A stretch of 46,350 nucleotides of DNA from Acidobacteriota bacterium (GTDB lineage: Bacteria; Acidobacteriota; Terriglobia; Acidiferrales; UBA7541): contig QHYS01000265.1 in NCBI GenBank assembly GCA_003223325.1, forward strand, positions 1 through 46,350, given 5' to 3'. How positions within the stretch are numbered: position 1 is the stretch's first letter; the number at the start of each line of letters is the position of its first letter. The position numbers and the translations under genes were made by a program. This document shows positions 6,799 to 30,433 of this stretch, in pieces. Below the pieces are notes generated by a model, which did not search any database, had not been told where the DNA came from, and worked only from the letters and a program-made list of their open reading frames with translations.

Positions 6799-6983
6799 CG
6801 CGAGCTTCCCAGTTGCGTGCCAGGAGCTTTGGCGATTTTCTATTGGGGAAAGGTAATTTAATCACGCACGGCTGCATCATGGTCCTAAGTACAGACTGCA
6901 AGGCCAGCGCGCAGTACAAGAAACTGGAAGAGGTATTGGAAGCGCAGCCCACCGCCAATAATAAATTGGTGTTCGTACCCTAA
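6799..6983 (+). pseudogene. Relic of a second Tlde1-like C-terminus
   Basis: Directly after the stop of the preceding gene, the plus strand reads ELPSCVPGA, then after a frame change near 6840 LGKGNLITHGCIMVL, then SAQYKKLEEVLEAQ, ending at TAA 6981-6983. This follows the C-terminus of the protein at 3357-4109 (LPSWMPGS, GLGSFTHGCITVL, SAQYGKMLQLLEAE) almost residue for residue. There is no start codon and no N-terminal domain, and one frameshift is needed. The GT51-amidase gene is thus flanked by a complete and a broken copy of the same domain. Confidence 0.8.
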
Positions 6984-7061
6984 TTGTTCGCGCGGTGCGC
7001 GATTTCGGGCGCGCTTTGAATCAGCATGATTGTGAGTGGTCCGTACCTGGAGCACTAGCTT

Positions 7062-7766: not shown

Positions 7767-7770
7767 GATC

Positions 7771-8358
7771 ATGTTCCTATTCGGCACATTCTGGCAGATG
7801 AAGCGGCGAACAGATCCGCTAGTCAGAACAGCAATTGCTGCCGTTCTCGTGCTGCTGCTAACGGCAGCGACAGGGTTCGAATACGACCAACGAAGACATG
7901 GAGGCCCGAGAAAGATTTATTTGACATTTGACGCAGACATCACGCCCGAGATGAGGCACCGCCTGCAGGCAGGAGAAGTGCCTGCGTGGTACAGTCCAGG
8001 CTTAGTAGCGTATCTCGCGAAGCAACAAGCTCCGGTGACTCTGTTTGTAACCGGGTTGTTCGCGGAGGCCTATCCCGAACTTGTGAAAGAGCTTGGCAGC
8101 AATTCGCATTTTTCAATTCAAAACCACACCTATGACCATTTAGCCTTTCAAAGCGACTGTTACGGCCTGCCCTGGACGAGCAATTTCAGGCTAAAAAAGT
8201 ATGAGATACAAAAAACACAGCAAATGATTTACGCCCTAACGGGCACAAGCCCCAGAAATTTGCGCCACCCCGGCCCAGCCCAACAGAGATACGACAATTC
8301 TGTCCCTCTCCATATCGTTGGTATCGTACCCTCAGACATGATCGCCTCGATCCTCTGA
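7771..8358 (+). CDS. NodB-type polysaccharide deacetylase, C-terminally shortened
   Basis: About 195 residues with a signal anchor (KRRTDP, then a hydrophobic run at about 18-33) and a NodB-homology domain. Motif 1 is LTFDADITP (52-59), where the usual second Asp of TFDDG is displaced. Motif 2 is NHTYDHLAF with metal-type His at 119 and 123. Motif 3 is LRHPGPAQQRYDN (R165). After motif 3 the family normally continues with the W-D and final H motifs, but here the frame ends within about 25 residues in unrelated sequence. The barrel is therefore incomplete and activity is doubtful. The start could be 7771 or, just as well, the ATG at 7798 immediately before the basic residues. It follows the SanA-like gene at once (stop 7766). 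Confidence 0.6.
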   Translation: MFLFGTFWQMKRRTDPLVRTAIAAVLVLLLTAATGFEYDQRRHGGPRKIYLTFDADITPEMRHRLQAGEVPAWYSPGLVAYLAKQQAPVTLFVTGLFAEAYPELVKELGSNSHFSIQNHTYDHLAFQSDCYGLPWTSNFRLKKYEIQKTQQMIYALTGTSPRNLRHPGPAQQRYDNSVPLHIVGIVPSDMIASIL

Positions 8359-15300: not shown

Positions 15301-15608
15301 ATGCGCGAGACCCCATAGACAACCGCATCGTAAGCGCCGTGGTCAACGGAACCACTCTTTACGGCTCTTACGATTATTCGTCCCTCTCGGCGTCGCCGCA
15401 GAGCCAAGCCGATCTAGGCAGCTGGCCGACTTTGGCGGCGGGGGCCGCCTGCGTTGACAGCAATAACAATGGATTACCAGACGTCTGGGAGTCCTACTGG
15501 GGTGGCGTCCTGGGTCTGGGCAGCACCCTCAACCCCAATGGTTTTGACTTTGGCGACGGATACACCAACCTTGAACACTACTTTGACGGGATGAGTCCCT
15601 CGCCGTAA
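12330..15608 (+). CDS. Secreted Ig-repeat / choice-of-anchor D / pectate-lyase-like beta-helix protein
   Basis: A 1092-residue exported protein. A signal segment (about 25-45) ends in QLGCSGAAS, which could be a weak lipobox. Five Ig-like domains of about 88 residues follow (starting near 53, 144, 233, 319 and 409), each with QPxxxxVTAGQTATFSV, PLSYQWxKNG and DNGAQF. A choice-of-anchor D/ASH-like domain lies at about 497-595 (LSFGNVNTG onward). From about 600 a right-handed beta-helix of pectate-lyase type begins with AFPGAQGGG, GGRGGAVYLV and ITIAGQTAPGGG, then FDHVDAEWSNYD. The C-terminus DSNNNGLPDVWE and GDGYTNLEHYFDG resembles the calcium-binding-like tail of such lyases. It probably binds or cuts an acidic polysaccharide outside the cell. 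It faces the exopolysaccharide genes. The start codon has no strong ribosome-binding site. Confidence 0.75.
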   Translation: MWLQALYRNQQGPIQRQSSALLRKSFVFFIVLLFLSAMLVQLGCSGAASLAADPAPLIKNQPAGQVVTAGQTANFTVTADGTLPLLYQWRKNGTAISGAISSSYTTPPTTAADNGAQFVVTVSDKAGSVTSNPATLIVTAANMGPSFTSQPVGQTITAGQTATFSVTASGTAPLSYQWNKNGTAISGATSSSYTTPAETVSDNGAEFTVVVSNSVGNATSNAAILTVTAAPVAPSITTQPVSRTVTAGQTATFSVIASGTSPLSYQWNKNSSAISGATSSTYTTPATTSSDNGAQFMVTITNSAGAITSNPATLTVNTPPSITAQPASQIVIVGQSATFSVTATSIAPLSYQWQKNRAAISGATSSSYTTPGTTTADNGAQFTVVVSNSFGNATSNAAILTVTAAPVAPSITTQPVSRTVTAGQTATFSVIANGTSPLSYQWNKNGAAISGATSSTYTTPATTSSDNGAQFTVLVSNTAGSVTSSAATLTVNVATYLLSASPASLSFGNVNTGTSSTLPVTLTSSGNSNVTISNVGISGGFNATGVSAGTILTPGKTTTLNVTFAPAAIGSVTGSVTITSSATNSPTSIPLNGVGTPPAVTLAFPGAQGGGALSVGGRGGAVYLVSNMADSGAGSLRACIDASGPRTCVFRTGGTIALLSSLTVSNPFITIAGQTAPGGGIQISGPSGANAAGNPALLVRTHDVVVQYLRVRRGHNAGEICNGAPWSCGMSVEVLANQASDNPYNIMFDHVDAEWSNYDAFGLAGHPNAGTNQPRSITISDSIIGEEFAGAGQTTGAAVGGYSGLGSTAEDLEVDIDFHHNLFAGTSHRMPLTTIKSGRLVNNFIYGWTYYPMRGKGFRDIIGNYFKYRSAQGFVSHEIQAWTTNDGNDTSFAPSFYLIGNAGPSDPTGTNNWAMTGLAINESAGEGSSPLSAVYQSTSPIPTPLGYISITADPVSKISSPSGIFLNAGRAAPYDGVGASRELDCSGKWVDARDPIDNRIVSAVVNGTTLYGSYDYSSLSASPQSQADLGSWPTLAAGAACVDSNNNGLPDVWESYWGGVLGLGSTLNPNGFDFGDGYTNLEHYFDGMSPSP
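12975..13218 (+). repeat. Nearly identical 244-bp repeat within Ig domains, copy 1
   Basis: Spans the end of Ig domain 2 and most of domain 3. It matches 13500-13743 with only about seven substitutions over 244 bp, offset 525 bp (175 codons), so recombination between the copies would delete or add exactly two Ig domains in frame. Confidence 0.85.
13500..13743 (+). repeat. Nearly identical 244-bp repeat within Ig domains, copy 2
   Basis: Second copy, spanning the end of Ig domain 4 and most of domain 5. The other Ig domains in the gene are much less alike at the DNA level, so this pair is a recent duplication or has been homogenised. Confidence 0.85.
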
Positions 15609-15701: not shown

Positions 15702-17786
15702 CTACAGGAGGGGAATCAAAGAGTGAACTGTCAAATCGGCACTTTGAGAGGTGGCGTTATACGTTGCCGAGATCGTGACGGTAGTTGAGAAGATCACCAG
15801 ATTCGTCGGCACGGTGAATGTTGTACTGGTGGCTCCGGCCGGAACGAGCACGCTGGGCGGGACGCTGGCTACAGACGGGTCGCTGCTGGAAAGCGTGACC
15901 TGTACACCGCCCGCAGGAGCTGGTCCGTTCAGCGTCACAGTAGCAAAAGAGGGATTGCCCCCGGTAACACTCGTTGGGTTCAGCGTCAGCGAAGAGATAA
16001 TTAGGGGTATCACGGTGAGCGAGGCCGTTTGTGTTTGGCCAGCATAAGAGGCGAAGATGGTGACGGTGTTCGATGCGGCCACCCCGCTGGTATTCACGGT
16101 GAAAGTTGCAGTCGTGGCTCCACCCGGAATCGTCACGCTGGGTGGGACGTTAGCTACAGACGGGTCGCTGCTGGAAAGAATGACCTGCGCACCACCCGCA
16201 GGAGCTGGCCCGCTCAGTGTCACCGTACCGGTGGAAGGATTCCCGCCGATAACGGTCGTCGGGTTCAGCGACAATGGGGAGAGACTTGGCAGCAACGCTA
16301 GAGCTAAGAAGTTCGCAGTTATTTGTTGGACACCAGAAACAACGCCTTTGCTCGGCCCGTAACTGTCGAGACCGAGACTCCACCACACCGAACCGGTTGC
16401 AAAGACGTTGGCGCCGCTGGCTGCGGTGTAGATGCTCATGTCAGCGTAGACCTGTGGAGCGCCGGTGGGAAAGGGGGAGTGTGCAAGGTCGATCGTTCCA
16501 GGCGGCGAGTTGCTGTCAATCGAGTCGGTTTCGTATCCGAGAACGTTTGGAAGAACGTCGCCGTTGCTTAGGCCGGTGCCCCCGAAAAGCCAATGCGCAG
16601 TGTTTGTAACGACTATGTTGCCCGGGGTGGGATCAGAAATGCCGTTGTATTCAACACCGATCATCGCTCCTTCAGGCCGTATATTCCTCCAGAGCGTAGT
16701 AGTGTACCGAGGGTCCGAAGGGTGATCCATGGCAGCGAGCTCTTTGTATCCGACCATGGTCCGGTCCAGATCGCCGGTCGAGGACGGCTCGAAGCGAACC
16801 TGCCAGTAGGATGCGTTCGCGCCAAGGAATGCAAGGTGGATCCCGGCATCACGGGCTCCTTCCACATTGTCCCGCATGTTCCACGACCAATATTCGTCGT
16901 GTGCGGCGACTAGAAAAACCTTGTGCGAGAGCAGTAAGGTCGGATTTTCGTGAGTGTCGAGGTCGGTCGCATAGGTCACGTCGTAGCCCTGGCTCTCCAA
17001 CCATCGAACCATATTAATTTCATAGCCCACTCCTCCGTATAGACTCAGGAAATTCCCTGCGCCGAAGTTCGGCCAAAATGGCCGATTGAACGAGACCTTA
17101 TAGCCGGTCTTCTGACCAGCATACGTAGTGTAGAGAGAGCTGCCTCCCCATTCGTTGTATGCTAGGTAGGTTGCGAAGCTCGCCTGAGCTAGGATCGGCG
17201 CATTACGAGCATCGTCCCGCACCACGAAAACGATGTAGCTCTCCCCCCGAGGTGCCGACGTGGAAAGTTTGACGAGATAATATCCGCTGACCCAGTCTGT
17301 CGGGATCGTCAGGCTGTAGGAGACATTCCAGTTGCACTCCACCAGCCCGGTTCCTGCCGGCTGGAATATTGGCGGCTGTGGCATTGGTTGGACAACACCA
17401 GGTAGCGTGACGGGACCCAACATCAGGCGCCCCCCAAGTCCGTTGTACCAGCCAATCCGAAAAATCGATAGGTTGTAGGGGTTGGTATTAATCGTCCGGA
17501 TATAAAAGTTAATAGAATCTCCTTGGTTTACACTCGTACGAGAAGCATAACCCTGAATTTCAACGTTGGCGTAAACGTTGGGGTCGCTGCTACCTGAACC
17601 CCACATATTTGCTGGGTACGTTAACTGCCAAAGCGATGTTCCAGGTTTTGCATTTTCAACCGCAATTGAATCAGCAGCATGGAGTTGGACGACAATGTTG
17701 AAGCATAGACAAAAAGCTACCGCTTTGATTACGCGCTGGAAACATGATCTAGCCACTTTCGTCTCCGATCTGCCTGCTGCCGGCAT
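15702..17786 (-). CDS. Secreted protein with DMFA (N,N-dimethylformamidase beta)-like domain and two beta-sandwich repeats
   Basis: About 694 residues from the ATG at 17786 (MPAAGRSETK, then a signal peptide ending LHAADS); the frame is open to 17861. The main part carries an all-beta N-terminal module (YASRTSVNQGDSINFYI, FRIGWYNGLGGR) and the large domain typical of N,N-dimethylformamidase beta-like proteins: YLAYNEWGGSSLY, GYDVTYATDLDTHEN, VAAHDEYWSWNMRDNVE and LAFLGANASYWQVR. The C-terminus holds two copies of an 85-90 residue repeat (SLNPTTVIGGNPSTGTVTL, then LTLNPTSVTGGNPSFATVTL), a Big-like sandwich. The substrate is unlikely to be dimethylformamide; family members near polysaccharide genes are of unknown function. 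It converges with the beta-helix protein at 12330-15608. Confidence 0.7.
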   Translation of the reverse strand: MPAAGRSETKVARSCFQRVIKAVAFCLCFNIVVQLHAADSIAVENAKPGTSLWQLTYPANMWGSGSSDPNVYANVEIQGYASRTSVNQGDSINFYIRTINTNPYNLSIFRIGWYNGLGGRLMLGPVTLPGVVQPMPQPPIFQPAGTGLVECNWNVSYSLTIPTDWVSGYYLVKLSTSAPRGESYIVFVVRDDARNAPILAQASFATYLAYNEWGGSSLYTTYAGQKTGYKVSFNRPFWPNFGAGNFLSLYGGVGYEINMVRWLESQGYDVTYATDLDTHENPTLLLSHKVFLVAAHDEYWSWNMRDNVEGARDAGIHLAFLGANASYWQVRFEPSSTGDLDRTMVGYKELAAMDHPSDPRYTTTLWRNIRPEGAMIGVEYNGISDPTPGNIVVTNTAHWLFGGTGLSNGDVLPNVLGYETDSIDSNSPPGTIDLAHSPFPTGAPQVYADMSIYTAASGANVFATGSVWWSLGLDSYGPSKGVVSGVQQITANFLALALLPSLSPLSLNPTTVIGGNPSTGTVTLSGPAPAGGAQVILSSSDPSVANVPPSVTIPGGATTATFTVNTSGVAASNTVTIFASYAGQTQTASLTVIPLIISSLTLNPTSVTGGNPSFATVTLNGPAPAGGVQVTLSSSDPSVASVPPSVLVPAGATSTTFTVPTNLVIFSTTVTISATYNATSQSADLTVHSLIPLL

Positions 17787-18100
17787 CAATGACACCGCAG
17801 AGACAGGATGGCGGTTTGGGTCACCCCACTGCTTTGCCGAGATCCGGCAAAGACGTTGCACTGACCGATAGTGCTTGAACGTGTGTACCTTATTAATAGA
17901 GGGACGGGCCTGCCTTGTGCTTTGAGGAACAAGGCGAATCTGAACCCGAGATATCCATCACAAACTGGGAAAGCGTCAGAGCTACCCCCGTTAAGAGTCC
18001 CATGCGAATGGTAGGGTTCGCGCTCCTACCGGCCGGCGCAAAGCCCGGTTCGCACGGACTTCGTGGGTGTCCTTCAATCAATTCAATGCGTTGACTAATC
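17787..18100. other. Gap between the DMFA-like gene and the broken asparagine synthetase
   Basis: Nothing recognised. A reverse-strand open frame running from within the synthetase (18303 to 17893) has no ribosome-binding site or familiar sequence and is taken as chance. Confidence 0.4.
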
Positions 18101-20094
18101 TCAAGCTCCGCCGCAACGGCGAGCAATAGGGCGGAAGAGACAATTATCGTCCACCGAATCGGCAGGGCCTCGTTGCCAACCAGATGCAGAGTTACAGACC
18201 GAACTGGGACGTGTGTCAGGCCGCTGGAATCGCCGCTCGAAGTGCCGCAGCCAGATTTCAAGGATGAGACATTTCCACAGCAGACCAGAATAGTCGCGCG
18301 CACCGCGCAAATGGTCTCGGAAGTAGGCTTCCAAGTTAGGCATCTGGAGATATCGATTTACAGATGCCCTAGACGAAAGGACATGATCCAAGTAGTACTC
18401 TCGCAATTCGTTGCGCAACCAGCGGCTAACGGGGACTCCAAAACCCCGTTTGAACCGGTGAAATACTTCAGCCGGAAGCAAATCCCTGAACGCCCTCTTC
18501 AGCAGCCACTTCTGGTTCCGGCCGCGAATCCGCTGATTGTCGGGGAGGGTGTTGGCGAACTCGATCACTTCATTGTCAAGAAACGGGACACGAATTTCGA
18601 GCCCGTGTGCCATGCCCCCCTTATCCGACTTCTCCAAATAGGTGCCTGGGAGCCAGAATTGCTGGTCCGCTAGACAAAGGTGACTGACGGTGCCCGTGTC
18701 CAGTTCATCGGGATAGCACTCCTGAATACAGGTTTCGACAGCTACTCTTCTTAGCCATTCCGGCTTCAAAACAGTTTCGATCGGGATCTCGCTCTCGAGG
18801 TAAGAGGAGTATCGAGCCGGGGCACCTCTCCTCTCCATGGCTCGCAGAACGACCTGGAAGCGACGGGGCCCCCAAGCGACACGACTAAGGTGCAGAGCGC
18901 GAACTAACATGCACAGCCCCGAACCAAATCGACCGAGTGACCGGATCACCTTCTCGAACTGGTAGCGACGGTAGCCCCCAAAGAGCTCATCCGAGCCCTC
19001 ACCCGCAAGTGCGACAGTGACTTGGGATCGAACCATCCGGCTGAGCAGGAACATGTTCAGGGCCGCGGCGTCGGCGAACGGCTCGTCGTAATGCCAGACC
19101 AACGCTGGGCATGGTCGATTTCGTCGTAATCCGGCCCCATGCCGGGATACCCAAGCGTGAAGGCCATCGTTTTCTCCGGGCCCAACAGCTGTGCCGTCAG
19201 AGCCGTCAGGATCGAGGAGTCAACTCCCCCACTGAGCAGCACGCCCACTGGCACGTCCGCAACTAGTTGACGGGCCACTGCTGCCGACAGCACTCTCCTC
19301 AATTCGCCTGCTGCGCTCTTGTCTTTGCGCGAGACGGGATGCCATCGGGGTCGCGGCCAGAACCGGCCGACGCTGATGACCAAGGAAGGATTGCCCAGCG
19401 TAGGTTCGTGGACTGTCATAACCTCGCCTGGCTCCAGTTGGCGCACACCTTCAAGCACGTGGTTCTCGCCATAGCAGTGCCCATAAGTGAAGAAGGCAGC
19501 CAGTCCGTCCGCACTGATCCTGGAACCGAAGCGCTGCATCCGAAAGAAAAACTTGGCTTCCGAGGCGAAGAGGAAAACATCCTTGTGCGCCCAGACATAC
19601 AGTGGCTTGATACCCGTGCGGTCACGCGCTAAGTACAGTCGTCGGCTTTCACGGTCGTAGAGGGCGAGGGCAAACATCCCGTTCAGGCGAGTCAGGAAGT
19701 CAGGTCCCCACAAGGCAAATCCTTCTACGATGACCTCGGTGTCGGAATAGCCCCGCCAGCTGCGCACACCGGTTCTCTTAGCCAACGGAGTGAATGAATG
19801 ACACCGCACAGCGGTGCGCTGCCACTCTTGCTCTATTTCCGCCCGCAGTTGTTGGAAGTTGTAAACCTCACCGTTATAGCAGAGCACGATGCGTTCGTCG
19901 GCCGAAAGCATTGGTTGATTGCCAGTGGGGCTCAGATCAATGACGGCTAGGCGCCAATGTAGAAGGCATACGCCAGTTTCCTGCCACGAGCCGAAGTTGT
20001 CGGGACCTCGGTGAGCCAAGACCGCTCTGTTTTCGCCGCTGGCATCGGGCCAGACCCGAGCTGTCCGCCCAAACGCGCCTGCAATTCCACACAT
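18101..20094 (-). pseudogene. asnB: Glutamine-hydrolysing asparagine synthetase (AsnB-type), broken by deletion and frameshift
   Basis: The N-terminal half begins MCGIAGAFG with the required nucleophile Cys2 (start 20094), then AHRGPDNFGSW, RLAVIDLSPTGNQPM and LCYNGEVYNF, the class II glutaminase. The synthetase domain opens with VGVLLSGGVDSSILTAL, the ATP pyrophosphatase loop. Near 19100 the text jumps from DYDEIDHAQ directly to LVWHYDEPFADAAALNMF in another frame. The family has about 30-35 more residues between these, so roughly 100 bp are missing and the frame is shifted. The rest, including VALAGEGSDELFGGYRRY, stays open to 18101. AsnB homologues in exopolysaccharide loci amidate or modify sugar or peptide substrates; this copy should be inactive unless the deletion is an assembly error. 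Confidence 0.85.
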
Positions 20095-20105
20095 AGATCG
20101 ATCCA

Positions 20106-20387
20106 TTAACTCATGAGGGTTTGGCAGCAGACAGTCCGAGGGCAGAGCACCGAGCGATCCGCTGCGAGCCTGGGAAGACTGAAACGCGCTTCGAAGCGTT
20201 GCCGGTCGAGCCGGCTATCCGTATACCGCGGAAGTTTGACGGGGTAATATTCCCTAGTGCAGTTCCAATCGTTCAGTCGTGCGAACGGCCAGGGAGAGTA
20301 CTGCTCCACCTGATACTGAAGCGTACACCGCGGACCCACGAAGGTCATATCCCCGCGAAGCACGTTCCCTAGTTGAGGCAAGATCAT
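20106..20387 (-). pseudogene. Bacterial sugar transferase (phosphoglycosyl transferase) C-terminal relic
   Basis: The minus strand reads ILPQLGNVLRGDMTFVGPR, the hallmark [21 protein letters not shown] of phosphoglycosyl transferases, followed by QVEQYSPWPFARLNDWN. The expected PGITG-WQVNGR segment is already scrambled. The N-terminal membrane part is absent. The frame ends in TAATG overlapping the open frame of the synthetase relic. A complete member of the family is at 26901-27533. Confidence 0.7.
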
Positions 20388-20718
20388 GATTGGGCCCCTC
20401 GCCTTTCACATTTCTCCTCCGATGGGGCGCATCGGCCCATGAGACGGCGATACTGCACGGGCATGAAAAGACGAGCCAGCCAGCGAGCCGGCGGGCGGAG
20501 GCGAATAAACGCGGGATAGTGCATGTGGCGATAACCAAGTTCAGCTTTGTAGCGCTCCCGCGAGTCTTTCAGGGAACGCATTCCATTGACGGCCCCTATG
20601 GATTCCAGGCGAGTGGCCCGAGCTGATGCAGGCGTAGTTCAGCACTTCAGGTGCAGGGCCGAGCGAGCTTAATGTTTTAGACGGCGGTTCCCATTCGTTC
20701 ATGCTGGTCCAGAATTGC
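20388..20718 (-). other. Probable decayed coding sequence, family unknown
   Basis: A minus-strand frame ending near 20387 gives ERYKAELGYRHMHYPAFIRL with RPPARWLARLF, which looks like genuine protein sequence, perhaps the C-terminus of a lost glycosyltransferase-like gene. It has no clear beginning, and the sequence between it and 20718 has frame changes. I cannot name the family. Confidence 0.25.
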
Positions 20719-21834
20719 TTATGCTCGATATTGAGGAAAGAACCCCGGGCGGACTTGCCAATCCGGCTCGAACTTGAAGCGTCTTTCAACTAGCTCGCAA
20801 TAGCGCAAGGCGTCCGTGATCACTTCCAGCGTGTGGTACCGGTATACGTTGCCGCCGAAGCTTCTTTTGAATTCGAACAAACTGTCCGAATTGCTTACTC
20901 CGCCTCCTAAATGGAGGAGTTTGCAACCACGTCCTCGAGCCCACTGCGCACCTGCGTTCATCAATAACGTTCCTGCACCGAGTTCACGGCCTTGCTCGTT
21001 AGAACCACCAAGGTGGTAATGGGTGAATTGTCGGTCTGCCAGAAAGAGGTAGCCCCCAACGACTTTGCGATCCAGCCACGCCAATGCAACTGCTACGTTG
21101 TCCGGCAGCCTACTTCCAAGAGACAGATAGTACGCAGTAGGGAAAAGATAGAACGAAGTAGCCTTGAGGCAGACCATTCGCTCTTCGTAAATTTTTTGGA
21201 AGAGTTCTAGCGCCTCCTGTAAAGGAAGATCGGTTCCGCTCCAAGAAACGCGCAAGGTATGCTGCGCATGATTCAAAGCGCGACGACGGCGTTCGTGCAA
21301 TCCCAGGGGTCGCTGGCGCGCGCCATCCCATTTGGTTAAATCGACAGCTACTGTGGACATGCGAAACTGAAGCACGCTAGCGTGCCGCGACAACTGATCG
21401 TGGTCAAGCCAGCTTTCTTGGGCCAACAAAGGGTGCAGGCGAATGAAACAGCTAACGATGCCTGCCTCCCGACACCACCGCTGCAGCTCTTCCAGCAATG
21501 TAGCCACATCGAGTTTCGTCAAAGGTTCGGTTTGAGAAAGCGGTAACAGCCCTCCATATCCATAAGGAGTGATGGCATCGACACCGGGCTCACGGCGAGC
21601 GAAAGGAAGGTCGGAGAGTGGTCTTAACAGCAGGGGCAAGAGTAAAGGCGCTTGATTCGCGTTGAGAATTAGTCCAATCGCTTTGCCGTGACCTGCTGCT
21701 TCTGACGCCAAGGCATACCCGGCCCGGTAATACACATCCGGAATTGGCGCGTGGTCGACAAGTTCGTCCCAGCGTGAGGCATCCTGCGGGTCGCTTGCGA
21801 CTAAGACCTGGGCTCCACAAACGGAAGTAGTCAT
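20719..21834 (-). CDS. FemAB-like GNAT acyltransferase of exopolysaccharide loci
   Basis: A 371-residue protein of the FemAB/GNAT-6 type: an N-terminal half with DVYYRAGYALASEAAGHG and PYGYGGLLP, and a C-terminal GNAT-like half with LFQKIYEERM, VGGYLFLADRQFTHYHLGGS, LLMNAGAQWARGRGCKLLHL and FEFKRSFGG. Relatives accompany XrtA/PEP-CTERM-type exopolysaccharide clusters and probably transfer an acyl or aminoacyl group to a sugar or lipid-linked intermediate; the exact substrate is unknown. It is the last intact gene of the leftward operon, about 180 bp after the PglA-like gene, and is followed by relics of a sugar transferase and an asparagine synthetase, genes often found with it. No exosortase is present in the window. 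Confidence 0.75.
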   Translation of the reverse strand: MTTSVCGAQVLVASDPQDASRWDELVDHAPIPDVYYRAGYALASEAAGHGKAIGLILNANQAPLLLPLLLRPLSDLPFARREPGVDAITPYGYGGLLPLSQTEPLTKLDVATLLEELQRWCREAGIVSCFIRLHPLLAQESWLDHDQLSRHASVLQFRMSTVAVDLTKWDGARQRPLGLHERRRRALNHAQHTLRVSWSGTDLPLQEALELFQKIYEERMVCLKATSFYLFPTAYYLSLGSRLPDNVAVALAWLDRKVVGGYLFLADRQFTHYHLGGSNEQGRELGAGTLLMNAGAQWARGRGCKLLHLGGGVSNSDSLFEFKRSFGGNVYRYHTLEVITDALRYCELVERRFKFEPDWQVRPGFFPQYRA

Positions 21835-22012
21835 CGTGACTCAATGTCTTCTTTGGCTCTGAGGACTCTCGTCACATACATATCAGTCTCTTGGAGTGCG
21901 AAGCGAGCAGTCCCGCAGATTTAGCTCTGGGATTCGCCGCAGATCTCAAAGCTTTAGCGGAGCTATGATTTTGGTCCTGGTTCGCGTCGCTCTGAATACC
22001 AGGCGGTGAAGA

Positions 22013-23317
22013 TTAGTATGTCTCAGAGGTGATATTCCCAAACGGCCTTTCTACCGCTCCTTTTTGGCGATGCGTCATTGGTAACGGTAGACCTCTCGTC
22101 CGCAAGAACCTCAGGTATTCCTGAGAGAGTGCTTCCCACACCTGTTCTTGTCGAAACTCGCGGAGGACACGGTCGCGGGCCCCCTGGGCTAGTTTGGCGG
22201 CCAGCACCTTATCCGTAAGAAGCATTCTCACCGCTTCGGCAAGCCCTGCCCCGTCGCCAACCGGAAAGAGCAAGCCGGTTTCACCGTGTATCACGACGTC
22301 AACGGTCCCAGTCGCTCGCGCCGCTGCTACCGGTATGCCAGCAGCGTTTGCTTCCAAAACGACATTGGGAAGCCCTTCCCTATGGCTCGGTAGAACCAGA
22401 ACATCCATCGCCGCATAGTAAGGGGCCGGGTCGTCGATCAACCCAGCAAGAATCACGTGCCGATGTTCCTGTAGACATTTGCGAATCTCGCCGGGGAGGG
22501 GGTCTTCGTCCTCGAAAAGTCCCAGCAGCAACAAGCGAAGATCCGGGAATTGGTGGCTCAGTTGCAAGAAAGCTTTAACAAGTTCCGGAATGCCTTTGTC
22601 GCGGGTCAAACGCCCAACAAAGCCGACGACAGGTGCCAGGGAAGGAATTCCCAATTTGCTCCGTAACTCTGGAGCTCGTCCGGTCATTAGTGGTGTTGTT
22701 TCAAAATGCGAGACATCTACTCCATTACTGCTCCCGGAGCCCAAAACTACTGCTTTTTCAGGACTCGTGAGCCCAGAGGCAAGGGCCTTGTCGCGCAGGC
22801 TTTTGCTAACACATACGACCCTATGGGCAAGACGGCAAGACAAATGATCCGCACCAACCAAAATCCACCTCATTAGGCCTTTCGTGGTTTCGAAGCGCAA
22901 ACCGCGAAGCGTGAAGAAGCGGCAAGGGACCCCGCTCAACCAGGCTGCAATCCCCCCCAGCAGACCGGCCTTTGGTGTGCCCACATTAGTGATTGTCGGG
23001 CGAAGCGCGCGCATTACTCGGTACAGACACCACAGTGTCACCAGGTCTGATAAGACAGCAATGTCCCGCGCCATCGGCATTTCGATTGTAGTTACGCCTT
23101 CCACGCTGGCCGCTTCAAGATTCTTTCCTGCCGAGGAGATGACCACCACATCGAACCCTCTATCTCGAAGGTACGGCAGTTGGCCTTGCAGGGCTCGGAC
23201 CGTGCAAGAGGCTGTGACAACATTCAGCACCATGGGTCGGCTCGAGCTCATGACGATTTTGGAACCATGCTGCAGGATGTCATGCACGTGCCAATGGCCT
23301 GTTTTGGGCGCTGACAT
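22013..23317 (-). CDS. GT4 glycosyltransferase, PglA/WbpU-like
   Basis: About 434 residues in the GT-B fold. Landmarks: MVLNVVTASCTVRALQGQL at the N-terminus, VGTPKAGLLGGIAAWLSGVP, FFTLRGLRFETTKGL, VVCVSKSLRDKA, VLGSGSSNGVDVSHF, FVGRLTRDKGIPELV and the EX7E motif in HREGLPNVVLEANAAG. These are typical of transferases that add the second sugar, often GalNAc-like, to an undecaprenyl-diphosphate sugar. The start is uncertain. The ATG at 23317 descends from the start of a different gene (duplication with 27499-27533), giving an 11-residue chimeric beginning; the next sensible ATG is 23251, just before the conserved N-terminus. The open frame to 23380 is not a real start. Confidence 0.85.
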   Translation of the reverse strand: MSAPKTGHWHVHDILQHGSKIVMSSSRPMVLNVVTASCTVRALQGQLPYLRDRGFDVVVISSAGKNLEAASVEGVTTIEMPMARDIAVLSDLVTLWCLYRVMRALRPTITNVGTPKAGLLGGIAAWLSGVPCRFFTLRGLRFETTKGLMRWILVGADHLSCRLAHRVVCVSKSLRDKALASGLTSPEKAVVLGSGSSNGVDVSHFETTPLMTGRAPELRSKLGIPSLAPVVGFVGRLTRDKGIPELVKAFLQLSHQFPDLRLLLLGLFEDEDPLPGEIRKCLQEHRHVILAGLIDDPAPYYAAMDVLVLPSHREGLPNVVLEANAAGIPVAAARATGTVDVVIHGETGLLFPVGDGAGLAEAVRMLLTDKVLAAKLAQGARDRVLREFRQEQVWEALSQEYLRFLRTRGLPLPMTHRQKGAVERPFGNITSETY

Positions 23318-23476
23318 AATCAAAGAAGTCTCTCCCTTTCCGGGTTTGTCACTCCCGACGGTGGGGAACCACCTATCCACTTACTTGGAGTTCCGAGAAG
23401 CGAGCGGCGGCGCGGAAAGGCTCGCGAGCTGTTGCCCCGATTGCAGACGTGCAGCCTAAAGGACGCTCTGACTCGT
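23284..23476 (-). repeat. Internal duplication, copy 1 (193 bp)
   Basis: Homologous to 27499-27645: the end of the DUF4091 gene, the intergenic gap and the first codons of the phosphoglycosyl transferase. This copy has about 46 bp extra between the gene tail and the start codon and has lost one G shortly after the ATG. Homology stops abruptly at 23284, where the PglA-like gene begins. Confidence 0.85.
23381..23476 (-). pseudogene. DUF4091 gene tail, relic
   Basis: The minus strand reads QSVL, stop, AARLQSGQQLASLSA and ends at TAA 23381-23383. The intact gene at 27568 ends QSVLEAARLRSGRQLDSLSRAR. An in-frame TAG and the absence of anything upstream show it is a dead fragment. It lies between the methyltransferase (stop 23630) and the PglA-like gene. 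Confidence 0.8.
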
Positions 23477-23629
23477 AGTCGTGAATTTTCATCTCGTGCA
23501 GTTAAGTCGCATCGATGTCCCTCGCGAGGGGTCCTTCCACATTGCCCTGCTGGGCATTGCTGCCGTGCCCTGAAATCGGATGGAGAAGACTCGGCGCAGT
23601 ACACGCCGCCGCACGGAGCTTAAACCTAC

Positions 23630-24433
23630 TCACCGGGCTAAGACCAGAAGTCCAGACCCCCCGAGGACTCGGACAGCAAGGTCTGGACGAATGCTGAAAC
23701 AAATCTTCCTGACCGGCGAGAAAAGAATTTTATGCAGAGTTGCGGTGGCAAGTTCGATCCCTCGCGGGGTATAGAAGTAGTCCAGGATCTCGTAGCCTAC
23801 GTCTTTCAACGTTTCCAGTGCTGTGTCCTTAGTGAAATAATGGATGTGTCCATATTGTTCGCGGTTCTCCATGATGGCTCGTTTGCGAAACACAGTCTGC
23901 ACGCTCAAATCAAGCGGGATGTGGAAAATTTTCAAATCACTTTTCGGCCTGATTCCGGGCAGAAAGCCGAAGTAGTCCTCAACGTGCTCAAAGACATCGA
24001 GTACCAGAATCAGATCGAAAAACGCGTCCTCCTCCCGACTGATGTCGGCCAATTTGAACTGAAGCTTTTCGTTTGTCCGGCTCTCACACATCTTTATCGC
24101 TTGCGGCGAGATCTCGTAGCCGCAAAAACGGCACGATTTGTCCAGTTTGCCCTGCAACAGTCTGAGCACTTCGCCCGCACCGCATCCCACCTCGCATATG
24201 GTAGTCGGCTGCAGACGGTTTCTCTCTAACATTCGCAGGATTTGCTTGACCTTAAACGGCGATTCGTCAGTGTGCCAAAGAGGATTCTTCTCTAGGTATT
24301 CACCGTTCGTGTAGATATTCCGATCGAGCCCTTTGCGGATGGTCTTGGGCACAGTGTCCGGCGGGAGGCACTGCTGAAGAGATAGCGCGACGTCCAGCGG
24401 CTCTAACCGAGAGCGTTCCTGCGGGTGATTCAT
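23630..24433 (-). CDS. Class I SAM-dependent methyltransferase
   Basis: A 267-residue protein with YLEKNPLWHTDESPFKVKQI near the N-terminus and the SAM-binding motif TICEVGCGAGEVLRLL (about 78-93), GYEISPQAIKMCE, FFDLILVLDVFEHVEDYFGF (about 138-157) and KIFHIPLDLSVQTVFRKRAI. Probably methylates a sugar hydroxyl or carboxyl in the exopolysaccharide. It is a clear paralogue of the protein at 35440-36195 along its whole length. Its ATG overlaps the stop of the upstream FAD oxidoreductase (ATGA, 24430-24433), so the two are translationally coupled. Confidence 0.85.
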   Translation of the reverse strand: MNHPQERSRLEPLDVALSLQQCLPPDTVPKTIRKGLDRNIYTNGEYLEKNPLWHTDESPFKVKQILRMLERNRLQPTTICEVGCGAGEVLRLLQGKLDKSCRFCGYEISPQAIKMCESRTNEKLQFKLADISREEDAFFDLILVLDVFEHVEDYFGFLPGIRPKSDLKIFHIPLDLSVQTVFRKRAIMENREQYGHIHYFTKDTALETLKDVGYEILDYFYTPRGIELATATLHKILFSPVRKICFSIRPDLAVRVLGGSGLLVLAR

Positions 24434-25695
24434 GACACGTGTTCCCCTATCGAGGGTTTTTGCAATCTTTCTCGCTCATACGATGCAACCTTGGGTGTGA
24501 CTGGATCGGTCGCCTGTCCGAGGATGCCACGAGTGAGTGCCCTCGCCGCGTATTTGGTGCCCGCGACAAAGCGCATGAGCGGCCCGAAAGTTCCGGCAGC
24601 GGATGCCCCAAGAAAGTGCAGCCCGGGCAGTGACGCTTCGAAGCCCGCGCTAAGCTCGGGGTAGCCGTCGACAATACGCAGCGAACGCAACAAATCCGGT
24701 GCAAGAAAAGCAGAGCGGGAAATGTCCACACGATAACCGGTGGCCAGCAGAGCATGATCGACATACCGCTCGCTCCCATCGTCGAGTTTGAGCCGTAATT
24801 GTTGGCCAACGGCGTTAGCGGAGATAATGACACGGCCGGTCGTGATCCTTACCCCCGCCATCCGGGGAGGCAGCCACCCTGCGCCAGCCGGCCGGAGTGC
24901 ACGCCGTTCGATACGAGAGCGAAGCGCGGAGGGAAAGCTCCTCAGTACGGGCGGTGTATCGACGATCCAGTTCAATCCGAACGGGCCTATTTCCGAAGGC
25001 GGGTAGAGGATACGTCCGAGTATATTATTTGGACGATGCAGCCATGTGTGCAGCGGGGTGCCATACCGGAGCCAGTGGATTCTTCGCGATCGCACAACGA
25101 CCTCGACAGCGGCTTCCGATTCGTGCAACAAGGCCGCAGACTCAAGCGCGCTTTGACCTCCACCGACCACGACCACGCTTTGGCCCTTGAACCGAGCGAA
25201 ATCACAATGCTGAGAGGAGTGCGATGCTAGCGCAGGCGGCAGGGTGTCAAACTGGCGCAGCCGATTAGCGAAGGAGCCGATTCCGGTGGCAATGACCACG
25301 CGCTGCGCCCAGACCGGATCGCCATCCTGGAACGTGATTCGAAACTTTTCTGAGGCGGCTTCGAGTCGCGTGACCTGGCGGGCGTCCAAGTGAGGTACCG
25401 CTTGACGCTGAAACCATCGCCCGTAGTCGATGAAATCCTCGAGTCTTATGGGCCTCGGTAACTGTATGCCCCGTGTCTGTTGATAGCGATCAAGAGTTAA
25501 CTCACCGAGCGGATCAGCAATATGAGAACCCTCCCAAGTGGAGCGGAGAAGCATGCCCGCCGGCATCTGGCGCCAGAACTCCATGGGCTTGCCGAACACA
25601 CATACGTCCACCTTCGCCGCCCGAAGGTGCGCGGCGGCCGCCAATGCATACGGACCGGCACCTATGATCGCTACTGGGCATGCCAAAGCTGTCAT
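24430..25695 (-). CDS. FAD-dependent oxidoreductase (flavin monooxygenase / N-hydroxylase-like)
   Basis: About 421 residues from the ATG at 25695 (MTALACPVAIIGAGPYALAA); the open frame reaches 25755 but without family sequence. Two dinucleotide-binding loops are visible: IIGAGPYALAAAAHL for FAD near the N-terminus and VVVVGGGQSALESAA for NAD(P)H at about 165-180. An FMO-like FWRQMPAGMLLRSTWEGSHI and the late ATGYRVD motif are also present. The pattern fits lysine/ornithine N-hydroxylase or flavin monooxygenase relatives. It sits between an ATP-grasp enzyme and a methyltransferase, suggesting a joint modification of an amino-acid or amino-sugar group on the polysaccharide; the substrate is unknown. 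Confidence 0.8.
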   Translation of the reverse strand: MTALACPVAIIGAGPYALAAAAHLRAAKVDVCVFGKPMEFWRQMPAGMLLRSTWEGSHIADPLGELTLDRYQQTRGIQLPRPIRLEDFIDYGRWFQRQAVPHLDARQVTRLEAASEKFRITFQDGDPVWAQRVVIATGIGSFANRLRQFDTLPPALASHSSQHCDFARFKGQSVVVVGGGQSALESAALLHESEAAVEVVVRSRRIHWLRYGTPLHTWLHRPNNILGRILYPPSEIGPFGLNWIVDTPPVLRSFPSALRSRIERRALRPAGAGWLPPRMAGVRITTGRVIISANAVGQQLRLKLDDGSERYVDHALLATGYRVDISRSAFLAPDLLRSLRIVDGYPELSAGFEASLPGLHFLGASAAGTFGPLMRFVAGTKYAARALTRGILGQATDPVTPKVASYERERLQKPSIGEHVS

Positions 25696-25742
25696 CGAAA
25701 ACCTCCTGGAGATACGCCATGCACGAACGCGTGCGCCATGGC

Positions 25743-26828
25743 CTAGAGTGTGCACTTCGCCAATGCAACCGGTTGCTGAACCGCCGTCTTGAGCCGCGGG
25801 TTGATGGTTGGTTGCGGGTCGTTGACGATGGCGAGCATGTCGTACTTGGATGTCACGATATTAGGTTCGACCTGGAGCCAACGAGTGTCAGGCTGCTCAC
25901 AATTCGCCCACGCCATCAGTGCTGCCGGCAAATTAGCACCGGCCATGTGCGAGAAGGGATAACCGCCGCCAATGCGGGGATTCAGATCGAGGACATAACA
26001 ACCTTCTTCGGTGACCATTACGTCGCAGTCAAGAACGCCGACATGGCCAAGCTCGCGACCGATTACCTCGCCGATCTTTTCGAGCCGGTCACTCTTGACA
26101 GTAATCGCGCGGTCCGTTTGGCCGGCCCGCATCGCCAGCTTGCGTTTGACCAAGGTGCAAACGTGACGGCCGTCGAGGTCATTCACCACGTCTAGTCCGT
26201 ATTCTTGGCCGCACAACCGCTTCTGAATCAGAATGCAGCGCTCTGGGTCAGTCGCACTCATCTCCCACAAGCACGTGCGCTGAATACGTTTCCTGGCCAA
26301 CAAATAGTCCAATTCCAGTTCCTCACGGTCCTCCGGATACTCAATCCCAATAGCCGTTGTGCCCCAGCGAGGTTTAATCACGAGAGGAAAGGTAATATCT
26401 CCACGAGCGAGCGCTTCACGCACATCGGTCAACGACAGGTAGGTGGCAGGCGCGTCGAGATTACATGCCTTCAAGAATTTCAGGGACTCCCATTTATCAA
26501 AGCACTTATCGGTGACTTCCAGTGATGAGACCACTGCAATAGTGCCCCCCTCGAGAAAGCGGTCGCGATTCCTCGCCAGAGCTTGCAGTTCGAGGTCATT
26601 GGGAGAGATCAGCAGGCGAACGCAACGCTGTCGGCAGATGGTGAGCAGAGCATCGATGTATGCCGGGTCGCTTAGCATCGGCACTACGAAGGATTCATCC
26701 GCGTCCCGAAAGGCAGGAGCCTCAGCAGAGGCGTCAGCTGCAAGAACTTGCCCACGGCCTTTGAGCGCATGCTGAAAGAATTTGACCAGATAGTTGCGCC
26801 GGCCAGCGCATGTAAGCAGGACATTCAT
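25743..26828 (-). CDS. ATP-grasp ligase (carbamoyl-phosphate synthase-like)
   Basis: About 361 residues from the ATG at 26828 (MNVLLTCAGRRNYLVKFFQ). The N-terminal pre-ATP-grasp domain (about 1-105) includes ISPNDLELQALARNRD. The ATP-grasp core includes FPLVIKPRWGTTAIGI, QKRLCGQEYGLDVVNDLDG and the metal-binding CYVLDLNPRIGGGYPFSHMAG. Such free-standing enzymes activate a carboxylate as acyl phosphate and join it to an amine, for example an amino acid to an amino sugar. It is followed by the oxidoreductase (gap about 47 bp) and preceded by the phosphoglycosyl transferase (gap about 72 bp). An amide-bond-forming role in glycan decoration is inferred from this context. Confidence 0.8.
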   Translation of the reverse strand: MNVLLTCAGRRNYLVKFFQHALKGRGQVLAADASAEAPAFRDADESFVVPMLSDPAYIDALLTICRQRCVRLLISPNDLELQALARNRDRFLEGGTIAVVSSLEVTDKCFDKWESLKFLKACNLDAPATYLSLTDVREALARGDITFPLVIKPRWGTTAIGIEYPEDREELELDYLLARKRIQRTCLWEMSATDPERCILIQKRLCGQEYGLDVVNDLDGRHVCTLVKRKLAMRAGQTDRAITVKSDRLEKIGEVIGRELGHVGVLDCDVMVTEEGCYVLDLNPRIGGGYPFSHMAGANLPAALMAWANCEQPDTRWLQVEPNIVTSKYDMLAIVNDPQPTINPRLKTAVQQPVALAKCTL

Positions 26829-26900
26829 GACTCGATCTCTAATGAGTCGCGCCCTCAAGAAGGATCATGGCACCCGCTACGGGGATCACGTTGCGCACGA

Positions 26901-27533
26901 TTACGACAGACTTCCACCGAATGACGGCACGTCCAGATCGCCGTCCGGGCTGATGTTGTCGTGTTTGAGCACATTGAGAATCGTCTGCAGCAGAATTCGC
27001 AGATCCAGAACCAGGCTAGCCTGGTTGATGTACCGAACATCCAAAGCAAATCTCTCCTCCCACCTCAACCTATTACGACCGTTGATCTGGGCGAGACCGG
27101 TGATCCCAGGCTTTACCTCATGACGACGAGCCTGTTGCGGCGTGTAGAGCTTGAGGTACTCGATCTTCAAGGGCCGCGGTCCCACAAGGCTCATGTCTCC
27201 CTTCAGAACGTTGACTAGCTGTGGCAACTCGTCAAGACTGGTCCTGCGCAGGACACGTCCGAGCGGTGTGATCCGAACTTTGTCAGGCATCGGCCTTCCC
27301 GCGGCATCTACCAGGTCACTCATCGTTCTGAATTTGTACAAAACAAATAGTTCACCGTGCAGCCCGGGACGCATGTCTCGATAGAGCACGGGCGGCCCCA
27401 TGCGGAGGCGAATCAGCCCGGCGATGATCGTCATCGGGAGGGCGAAGACCGCTAAACCGAGAATGGCGCCTGCTAGATCCAGAATTCTCTTCATGGACGC
27501 ACGTGCCAATTGCCCTGTTTTGGACGCTAACAT
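26901..27533 (-). CDS. Phosphoglycosyl transferase (PglC/WcaJ-type sugar transferase)
   Basis: A 210-residue monotopic sugar transferase. It has a basic MKRILDL, a re-entrant hydrophobic segment (about 18-40), then [55 protein letters not shown] and [13 protein letters not shown], all motifs of the family. It transfers a phospho-sugar from UDP-sugar to undecaprenyl phosphate, the first committed step of glycan assembly at the inner membrane. The small size fits the PglC class without the extra N-terminal membrane domain of WcaJ. The start is 27533, or less likely the internal ATG at 27494. The sequence around its start codon is duplicated at 23284-23317. Confidence 0.9.
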
Positions 27534-27645
27534 GTAAACCTATCGACCTGGACTTCCGGGAAGTGCGTTATCTGGCGCGGGAAAGGCTATCGAGTTGTCG
27601 CCCCGATCGCAAACGTGCAGCTTCAAGAACGCTCTGATCTTGCGT
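27499..27645 (-). repeat. Internal duplication, copy 2 (147 bp)
   Basis: The intact version of the duplicated segment: last 26 codons of the DUF4091 gene, the 34-bp gap and the first 11-12 codons of the phosphoglycosyl transferase. Partner of 23284-23476. Confidence 0.85.
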
Positions 27646-29265
27646 CCAGTTGTGCCAATCTGCGGCAATAGGTCTGATCACCGAGTTGATAAAGGAAACT
27701 TGATTTTTGCTCTTGAGTAACTCAACGTACTCGTAGTCCTGAATTCCATCTCGTAGGTACTTGAGTCGCATCGAGGGGGCTGTGGCTGTGGTCCCCACTC
27801 TTGCTCCCGGATAGAGCAGAATTCCTTCCCCTGGCCAGTACGCACCCGAAACAGGGCCTACAAGCACGTCATCCCAGGCAGTAGCCTCATTCGGCCAGTA
27901 ATCGACAGCCCAATAGAGTAAGCCAGTTGCACCCTGCATCTGGTTCAAGAAACCAGCTTGGATGCGGTAGTTGATCGGCAGGAAGTCAATCAGCCACTTG
28001 GGAGAATAATTATCACCTTCGAGGTCGTTATAAGACCAGACCTTCCCCGGTATTCCCGCCAGGCTCAGGGGCCACATTCTAGGAAGCATCACCCAGTAGT
28101 CAACTGCCGGCTTACCTATACCACTCCCATCGTCGTAAAGCGCAGGATCTGGCGCCATGGTGATGATGATGTTGACCCCGGCGGCGTGGGCATTCTGCGC
28201 CCACTGCTTGATGGTCGGGTAGATGGCGGTGCAGCCGCCAATCTCATCGGCCGGGAAGATGTCCAGAAAAACTCCGGGCGGATACTGTGCTACTTGAGAC
28301 TGAATGTCGGAAACGCTCGGAGCTCGCGCCATCGAGCTACAGGTTGCGGCGCCGTAATAGGGAAGACCGGTGCGATTTAGCCCGAAGTTGGTAATCTCAG
28401 AAGCGGCGAACGAAGGCATCCAAATTCGCGCAGGCATTATTTTGTGACGCATGAGCACTTCCTGATTGGCCTTGACCGCTCCCCGCTGATTGTTGAAGAT
28501 AAAGAATAACGTCTTTTCCGATGGCACGAGCGGAAGCTCGAAATTCCACACCGTTAGGCGGATCGGCACCATCACGTTGTCCTGACTGCTCGTAATGACG
28601 ATCGTGCCCGTATACACTCCCGGCGGGCTCGTTTTGATTCCGCGCGGAATGAATAGATCCACCCAAACGGGTTGGTTGTGGCCAACGGGAATACTGAATG
28701 GGACAGCCTGCAGACTTGCTCCGTTACCTGACAATGGCACCCCCGTTTGAGGATCGTTGAATGGTATCAGCGGGTCGGGATATGTACCGGGCGGTAGTGG
28801 GCGGTTTGTGGCATGTGGCCCGTAATCGAGACTGCCAGTAGCGAAGCTAACGTAATACTCGCGGTATAGGTTGTAGTTGGATTGGGCGATCACAGCGCCA
28901 TCAGGGCCTACCAGGTCGGACAACATTACGTTGACGCCAGTGAGATTTGTATTCGAAGCAGCTGTGATAATGATTTGCGTATCCACATACTCGCCGCGAG
29001 CACCCGAAAGGTTGATCGAGGAGATGTTTCCAGGGGCATCGCTCGGTCCGACCCTCACGAGACTAGGAACGATCCAAGCAATCATAGGTGTGTCACCGCG
29101 CAGCTCGTCGGGAGTGAGAAGGGATGCGATTATGACAGTTATAACGACAATTACTAAACTAGTTCCGACACCTCTTGGCAAGAGTGAAGTTCGTATATCG
29201 CGTGCCCTTCCTAGAGACGCGTCTCGACTGGACCCAAAATCCAACCTGTGTGGATTAGCCCGCAC
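27568..29265 (-). CDS. DUF4091 (glycoside-hydrolase-like) membrane-anchored protein
   Basis: A 565-residue protein with an N-terminal membrane anchor (hydrophobic at about 33-50), a beta-sandwich region (about 65-220) and a TIM-barrel-like DUF4091 region. Landmarks include VFLDIFPADEIGG, VNIIITMAPDPALYDDGSG, KVWSYNDLEGDNYSPKWLID, GATGLLYWAVDYWP and MRLKYLRDGIQDYEYVELL, the last being the DUF4091 signature. Such proteins are thought to act on glycans outside the cytoplasm, but no activity is established. Its start overlaps the end of the upstream glycosyltransferase by 11 bp, so it is part of the operon. A relic of its last 30 codons lies at 23381-23476. Confidence 0.75.
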   Translation of the reverse strand: MRANPHRLDFGSSRDASLGRARDIRTSLLPRGVGTSLVIVVITVIIASLLTPDELRGDTPMIAWIVPSLVRVGPSDAPGNISSINLSGARGEYVDTQIIITAASNTNLTGVNVMLSDLVGPDGAVIAQSNYNLYREYYVSFATGSLDYGPHATNRPLPPGTYPDPLIPFNDPQTGVPLSGNGASLQAVPFSIPVGHNQPVWVDLFIPRGIKTSPPGVYTGTIVITSSQDNVMVPIRLTVWNFELPLVPSEKTLFFIFNNQRGAVKANQEVLMRHKIMPARIWMPSFAASEITNFGLNRTGLPYYGAATCSSMARAPSVSDIQSQVAQYPPGVFLDIFPADEIGGCTAIYPTIKQWAQNAHAAGVNIIITMAPDPALYDDGSGIGKPAVDYWVMLPRMWPLSLAGIPGKVWSYNDLEGDNYSPKWLIDFLPINYRIQAGFLNQMQGATGLLYWAVDYWPNEATAWDDVLVGPVSGAYWPGEGILLYPGARVGTTATAPSMRLKYLRDGIQDYEYVELLKSKNQVSFINSVIRPIAADWHNWTQDQSVLEAARLRSGRQLDSLSRAR

Positions 29266-30433
29266 GTTGTACGAGACCCGACCACCGCACGCTTGGAGGT
29301 GTTTCGCCAGCCAGCTTTTGATAAATCGCCTGATACCGTTGCACGACCGTGTTCAATGAAAAGTGCTGTTGCACGCGCGATCTTGCAGTCATTCCCAGGT
29401 GGCCCCGCATTTCGGGTCCGGCTTCAATTAGTTCACGCCATGCCGATGCCAGCGCGCACGGGTCTTTTGGCGGCACTACTTTTCCGGTGCTGCCGACGAT
29501 CCGTGCCGAATCGCCCACGTCGGTGACGACACACGACGTGCCACATGCCATTGCCTCGCCGACGCATAGAGGAAACGCCTCACTCATAGAGGACGAGGTG
29601 GCAATATCTAGGGCCGCAAAGAAGGAACCGATGTCACTGCGCTCCCCGAGGAGATGGCAGCGCTGCTGGATGCGTGCCAACGCTATCCGCTGCATTAGCT
29701 CGGGGTTGTCACTACTTACGCCACGGCCACACAAAACGAAGTGAACCTCCGGCATGACGGCGTGAAGGTGTGCGGCTGCTTGAATAAAATTGTAATGATC
29801 CTTCTGCGGGTGGAAGCGGGCAGCCATTCCTATCAGCAGGGTATTGTCCCGGACGTGCAGTTCCTTACGGAGTGAGAGCCGTGCCGCTGTGTCGGGTTTG
29901 AACTCCTGCAGATCGAAGCCGTTGGGTATGACCTCCATACTTTTCGCTGCGTAGCCGAACCGAACGTGCAAAAGCAAAGCTGCCTGCGAGACGAAGACAA
30001 TAGATCTTGGGAGCCAACGAGACATATGGGCACAGCACTTCGCTGTCCATAACGTGAGCGGTTTATTCACTTGGGGGTCTAGGTCAGCTTGGTGAATGCC
30101 CCAAACAACCGGTATGTCGCCAGCGAGGCGAGCAGCCAGCGCTCCGATTAGGTTGGCATGATACATCCAGGTCTGCACGATTTGGGCTCCCGACTGGCGA
30201 ATCCATCGACCCAGACGAGTAACTGCGAGAGGATTAGGAACGCCTCTCTTCATGCCAAGCGCGGCGACCGGCACTCGCGCTCGCCGAATCTTGTCGGCCA
30301 CCTCCCCAAGGTCGGTTAGGGAAATCACCTGATTTTCAAATTTTCCCCTGTCCATTGTGCAGAGAAGCCGATACAGCATCACTTCGGCTCCGCCCAGAGA
30401 GAGATCCGTGATGACGTGAGTAACCTTGATCAT
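29255..30433 (-). CDS. GT4 glycosyltransferase
   Basis: A 392-residue GT-B enzyme. It begins KVTHVITDLSLGGAEVMLYR, the usual GGAE motif of GT4, and continues with VQTWMYHANLIGALAARL, VSQAALLLHVRFGY, VIPNGFDLQEFKPD, GMAARFHPQKDHYNFIQAA and the EX7E site SEAFPLCVGEAMACGTSCVV. It probably adds one sugar of the repeat unit at the cytoplasmic face of the membrane; donor and acceptor cannot be told from sequence. It shares an 11-bp overlap with the DUF4091 gene downstream. Confidence 0.9.
   Translation of the reverse strand: MIKVTHVITDLSLGGAEVMLYRLLCTMDRGKFENQVISLTDLGEVADKIRRARVPVAALGMKRGVPNPLAVTRLGRWIRQSGAQIVQTWMYHANLIGALAARLAGDIPVVWGIHQADLDPQVNKPLTLWTAKCCAHMSRWLPRSIVFVSQAALLLHVRFGYAAKSMEVIPNGFDLQEFKPDTAARLSLRKELHVRDNTLLIGMAARFHPQKDHYNFIQAAAHLHAVMPEVHFVLCGRGVSSDNPELMQRIALARIQQRCHLLGERSDIGSFFAALDIATSSSMSEAFPLCVGEAMACGTSCVVTDVGDSARIVGSTGKVVPPKDPCALASAWRELIEAGPEMRGHLGMTARSRVQQHFSLNTVVQRYQAIYQKLAGETPPSVRWSGLVQRAG

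Follow-up and report, generated by a model that had tools for sequence, protein, structure and literature searches.

An operon of an Acidobacteriota bacterium contains two genes that each stand directly behind what appears to be the same short stretch of DNA, and the locus raises the question of what that stretch is and how it came to lie at both ends of a run of intact genes. The window, i.e. the whole 46,350 nt stretch of DNA that was analysed, includes Wzx-, Wzy-, Wzz-, Wza- and CapD-like genes upstream of this region and in the same direction, and the operon is therefore of the Wzx/Wzy type for polysaccharide. In the direction of transcription, the order is GT4b, D, PGT (phosphoglycosyl transferase), ATP-grasp, oxidoreductase, methyltransferase, the scar described below (23515 down to 23284) and GT4, all on the minus strand. 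The features concerned are as follows.

29255–30433, minus strand: GT4b, first in the described gene order, before D.
27568–29265, minus strand: D, an intact DUF4091/GH123-like gene and the source of the duplicated tail (PF22680, 37.3 bits against a cut-off of 27).
27499–27774, minus strand: copy B of the joint, the reference copy, made up of the last approximately 69 codons of D, a 34 nt gap and a 35 nt leader with ATG 27533 (blastn, local alignment and shuffles).
26901–27533, minus strand: PGT (P), Bac_transf family (PF02397, 201 bits against a curated cut-off of 27), with a probable native start at 27494.
25743–26858, minus strand: ATP-grasp protein with a PylC-like N-terminal domain (PF21360, 90 bits), 67% identical to its counterpart in G058:C112.
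24430–25755, minus strand: FAD/NAD(P)-binding oxidoreductase (PF07992, PF13738).
23630–24433, minus strand: SAM methyltransferase (PF13489), the last gene before the scar.
23284–23515, minus strand: copy A of the joint, the scar, made up of fragments of the D tail, the gap and a leader with ATG 23317 (blastn blocks, alignment and codon comparison).
22013–23380, minus strand: ORF of the GT4 glycosyltransferase (G; PF00534, 111 bits), with a probable native start at approximately 23251.

D is named GH123-like only, because its catalytic domain PF13320 scores 22.8 bits, just below the curated cut-off of 23.1, while the N-terminal PF22680 passes. We take the Bac_transf-type PGT to be what is called PglC in Campylobacter naming, in which PglA is a GT4. 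Elsewhere in the window, an asparagine-synthase-like gene on the minus strand (18101–20106) is split into two overlapping ORFs, a GATase part (19057–20106) and a synthase part (18101–19102), which suggests a frameshift or a sequencing error. Between that gene and a FemAB/GNAT-like gene, the minus strand holds the relic of a Bac_transf-type PGT (20142–20384), which has a LPQLGNVLRGDMTFVGPR-like motif and no start. Across 69 aligned residues its amino acid identity to the intact PGT is just 36%, too low for a recent copy. Imperfect internal direct repeats were seen at 12510–13805 and 15810–16273, within the large ORFs 12330–15608 (plus strand) and 15702–17861 (minus strand), respectively.

A preliminary description of this DNA had interpreted the two places as copies of one gene joint and as a scar of duplication or recombination. 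Pairwise alignment located both segments where it had placed them, approximately 4 kb apart, with copy A as the decayed counterpart of copy B. Three collinear blocks were returned by blastn: 23284–23317 against 27499–27533 (31/35 identical, 89%), 23409–23471 against 27574–27637 (54/64, 84%) and 23471–23515 against 27729–27774 (39/47, 83%). The third had been missed and makes the match slightly longer than had been claimed. Pooled, 124 of 146 positions (85%) are identical. The local alignment of A and B has a score of 123.5, whereas the best of 284 other places in the window reaches 43.5, and for each of the three blocks the block score was reached by none of 1000 dinucleotide shuffles. Similarity is at chance level past the third block (23518–23700; 177/1000 shuffles reach the score) and on the GT4 side (23200–23283; 984/1000). 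Three collinear blocks, each above all 1000 shuffles, rule out a short common motif; the similarity is real, the joint is duplicated and the interpretation as a scar is supported. A DNA search of the window's own genome found the joint sequence in these two places and no third, which rules out a dispersed repeat.

The D part of copy A has a 92 nt deletion, frameshifts and an in-frame stop, and its gap is approximately 50 nt longer than that of copy B. Among the tail codons compared, 7/18 differ between A and B (three synonymous, three non-synonymous and one stop), and two, three and four changes fall at codon positions 1, 2 and 3, respectively. A motif conserved in the tails of 12 relative DUF4091 genes is kept in copy B. 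Because copy A has the stop, the frameshifts, the deletion and changes spread over the codon positions while copy B retains the conserved motif, A is the decayed copy, and its changes have the appearance of pseudogene decay.

This pattern bears on two alternatives. A functional element, whether a promoter, leader or RNA signal, could have been kept in front of two genes that share it, and in both copies the leader has an ATG in frame with the gene that follows. However, most of the match is coding sequence of D, frameshifted in copy A, and in the segment 23200–27800 no terminator-like site was found and promoter-like sites were at chance level (three, with 1.9 expected), making such an element extremely improbable. 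The second alternative is a chimera of the operons of two strains, created on assembly. The DNA comes from a draft assembly in 377 contigs, but copies that differ at approximately 15% of positions and by indels are not one sequence placed twice, and GC3 is alike on both sides. We regard a chimera as very unlikely.

What was copied can be stated more exactly from the starts of the two downstream genes. The closest relative of the PGT (G058:C112, 78% identical) aligns to it from residue 13 onward only, and ATG 27533 is therefore probably not the native start. The probable native start, 27494, is 13 codons inside the ORF that ATG 27533 opens, and some 4 nt separate it from the end of the duplicated leader. 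Relatives of GT4 begin to align near 23251, which is 22 codons inside the in-frame extension, inclusive of the duplicated leader, that is opened by ATG 23317. The conserved coding sequences of the PGT and of GT4 are both outside the repeat, and the copied stretch comprises the end of D and the leader that precedes the downstream gene; no PGT start is included. Upstream of the relatives' genes, no clear counterpart of the leader was seen by eye, and the leader has no homology-based assignment to GT4 or PGT. Annotators should note that either gene may have been given the wrong start codon.

The suggestion that the upstream ATG of the PGT is borrowed agrees with its position in the duplicated leader. 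A companion claim, of a former second PGT at the scar, is not supported. It takes D-PGT-…-methyltransferase-GT4 as the ancestral order and would have the block duplicated together with the D tail, the second PGT deleted and its leader fused to GT4. This needs fewer steps, as one duplication and one deletion suffice, and the ATG of the leader shares the reading frame of the PGT. But the repeat stops those 4 nt short of the native start, the sequence beyond is unlike PGT coding sequence, and in five relatives that have the two genes adjacent GT4 is upstream of the PGT, not downstream. A deleted second PGT is, in our judgement, distinctly unlikely.

The relatives compared were 17 stretches from 15 genomes (the window's own included), chosen by match to D, PGT or GT4, and counts among them are not frequencies; eight further relative stretches were added later, for 25 in all. 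GT4 lies immediately upstream of the PGT in five of the 17 (G058:C112, G062, G034, G048 and G000:C136) and immediately upstream of the DUF4091 gene in four (G058:C115, G040, G080 and G081). In G058:C112, the order is GT4-PGT-ATPgrasp-oxidoreductase, with identities to the window of 61%, 78%, 67% and 69%, respectively. The GT4 and PGT frames overlap there. In G000:C136, a second cluster of the window's own genome (L147, about 5975–7800), GT4 and PGT share a single reading frame of approximately 600 codons. The gene order of the window is unusual: neither it nor D followed by the PGT occurs in any of the 25 fetched relative stretches, and it was noted in none of the 80 loci, the best of them 59% identical, that were kept when genome contigs were scanned with the PGT; these loci also served as subjects in the comparison of the PGT relic.

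When the DNA of the joint was used as the query, matches were found in 3/150 relatives besides the window's own genome, all of them inside DUF4091-like genes. The DUF4091 protein matched 10/298 other genomes of the class (E ≤ 1e-60) and the ATP-grasp protein 1/398 (G058; E ≤ 1e-40). The PGT matched 0/296 other genomes of the phylum (E ≤ 1e-70), a sample that evidently does not include G058, which would pass. None of three genus members searched has a match to D, and hence there is no empty site for comparison. In RpoB, the window's genome is 63% identical to the one Acidobacteria genome compared and at most 54% identical to the others that gave long alignments (three of the nine genomes gave no usable one), which makes an acidobacterial source probable. 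Two further features were seen in the fetched stretches. L147, the other polysaccharide cluster of the window's own genome, has a 122 nt direct repeat (518–637 and 2053–2173, 82% identical), of which one copy falls within a short ORF and the second between genes. In the four relatives L140, L141, L142 and L148, another DUF4091-like gene lies in inverted orientation a few kb past the first, and an oxidoreductase gene separates the two.

With somewhat better than even confidence, we interpret the scar as what remains of an ancient segmental duplication within the Wzx/Wzy-type operon, after which alternate copies were lost. The ancestral order would have been D-GT4-PGT-ATPgrasp-oxidoreductase-methyltransferase, and a unit that began within the D gene and ended shortly past the methyltransferase gene would have been duplicated in tandem. 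When the first copy lost GT4, the D-GT4 leader would have come to abut the PGT, and the second copy would have lost everything after GT4, keeping only the tail of D in front of it. The outcome would be D-PGT-ATPgrasp-oxidoreductase-methyltransferase-(d)-GT4, in which GT4 has changed sides and the PGT and GT4 each follow a copy of a single leader. One duplication with two deletions would be enough to produce the gene order seen here and a leader at each place. The data show two copies, the decay of one of them and an unusual gene order; that the duplication was in tandem, that two losses followed and that the leader ATG is used is what we infer.

A significant match limited to two genomic places, the pseudogene-like state of copy A, the adjacency of GT4 and PGT in five of the 17 stretches and the absence of the window order from all 25 argue for duplication and loss. 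The identity of GT4 to its counterpart in G058:C112 (61%), which is below that of the other genes of the module, counts against it. Neither the presumed ancestor (D-GT4-PGT…) nor an intermediate was seen in any genome, and downstream of GT4 (17861–22013) no sequence was identified with certainty as left over from the genes that the second copy lost. The gap behind GT4 (21790–22012) weakly resembles the D tail of the scar and is at most a possible third copy of it; in the most favourable of several comparisons made post hoc, 6/1000 shuffles reached the score.

The main rival, and the one nearest to the cassette proposed in the preliminary description, is that the block PGT-ATPgrasp-oxidoreductase-methyltransferase was acquired through homologous recombination. 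A relative's DNA, bringing its own D tail and leader, would have undergone a single crossover at the joint and left diverged flanking direct repeats. Such an event gives exactly the repeat-block-repeat layout, with repeats that could have differed from the start, and G040, G058:C115, G080 and G081 have the order GT4c-GT4b-GT4-DUF4091 with no match to PGT or ATP-grasp in the stretches fetched. However, the differences in copy A look neutral, which is not what a functional gene of another strain would bring. GC3 is similar in the PGT-to-methyltransferase block and its neighbours (0.55–0.66), and a foreign composition of the block is rejected. Neither a donor nor an empty site was found, the ATP-grasp protein having matches in G058 and the window's own genome only among 399 genomes of the class. 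We consider block entry unlikely, while giving it more weight than the other alternatives.

A tree of GT4 proteins (14 rows, and a second without G048, G076 and G102) was also used. The four D-linked GT4s form one clade (100/100) with the window GT4 outside it; all four rows are from one genus (g6), and their clade could simply be species history. The best tree joins the window GT4 to these four with weak support (67/40), and in AU tests neither grouping of the window GT4 with that of G058:C112 (p 0.24) nor grouping of the G058:C112 GT4 with the D-linked four (p 0.37) was rejected. As far as these sequences go, the tree cannot decide whether the window GT4 is of the PGT-linked or the DUF4091-linked kind, nor between tandem duplication and block entry.

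The further claim that the block between the copies could be lost or gained as a cassette is doubtful, there being no exact run over 12 nt and, among the relatives compared, no pair with the same order that differs in having the block. RecA-type exchange needs a minimum of approximately 25 nt, about twice the 12 nt of the longest exact run between A and B. Because that run is so short, a cassette that is still active is unlikely. The repeats are not long or similar enough to recombine now, so that a currently active cassette is rejected, and loss or gain of the block through these repeats at the present day is not to be expected.

Whether the duplication also rewired translation is a more tentative matter. 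In relatives such as G058:C112, where the PGT frame overlaps the end of GT4, the two enzymes would probably be translationally coupled. In the window, the PGT would have captured the D-GT4 leader and its ATG, and its N terminus would have been extended by 13 residues, with GT4 now placed away from it behind another copy of that leader. We think this improbable.

How ordinary such a scar is was gauged from 106 stretches (1.84 Mb), comprising the window, the 80 PGT loci of other bacteria and the 25 relative stretches, in which direct repeats of at least 40 nt and at least 78% identity were counted if they were no more than 10 kb apart and not contained in a single ORF. At least one is present in 17/106 stretches, the window included, a crude figure that pools all causes, as CRISPR-like, IS-like and paralogue repeats count alike and the ORF caller puts the scar in a shadow ORF. 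The scar is a fresh example of an ordinary, already known kind of genome scar, and its wider consequence is little. Its value is as a readable footprint of the reshuffling of gene order by duplication and loss in a surface-polysaccharide operon.

The pglA-pglC genes of Campylobacter are an example of a GT4-PGT gene pair. Such a pair is encoded together in several of the window's relatives, adjacent or, once, in one reading frame, whereas in the window it is separated, with its members on two sides of a three-gene block and the scar. The Salmonella O-antigen clusters, in the account cited, contain gene remnants and a partial duplication of wzy (PMC3715488). They resemble the window in having decayed or partly duplicated fragments between intact genes, there explained by serial deletion and recombination; they differ in that many strains allow a stepwise reconstruction and IS and H-repeat remnants are present, whereas the window comes from one genome (PMC3715488). 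Duplication followed by gene loss has itself been described as a way in which new gene orders arise in bacteria, the SNAP hypothesis (PMC7055797). As presented there, it concerns large, selected duplications, whereas that in the window would have been approximately 5–6 kb, with no evidence of selection. The two have in common a duplicated segment, copies that lose different genes, remnants left behind and a changed gene order (PMC7055797).
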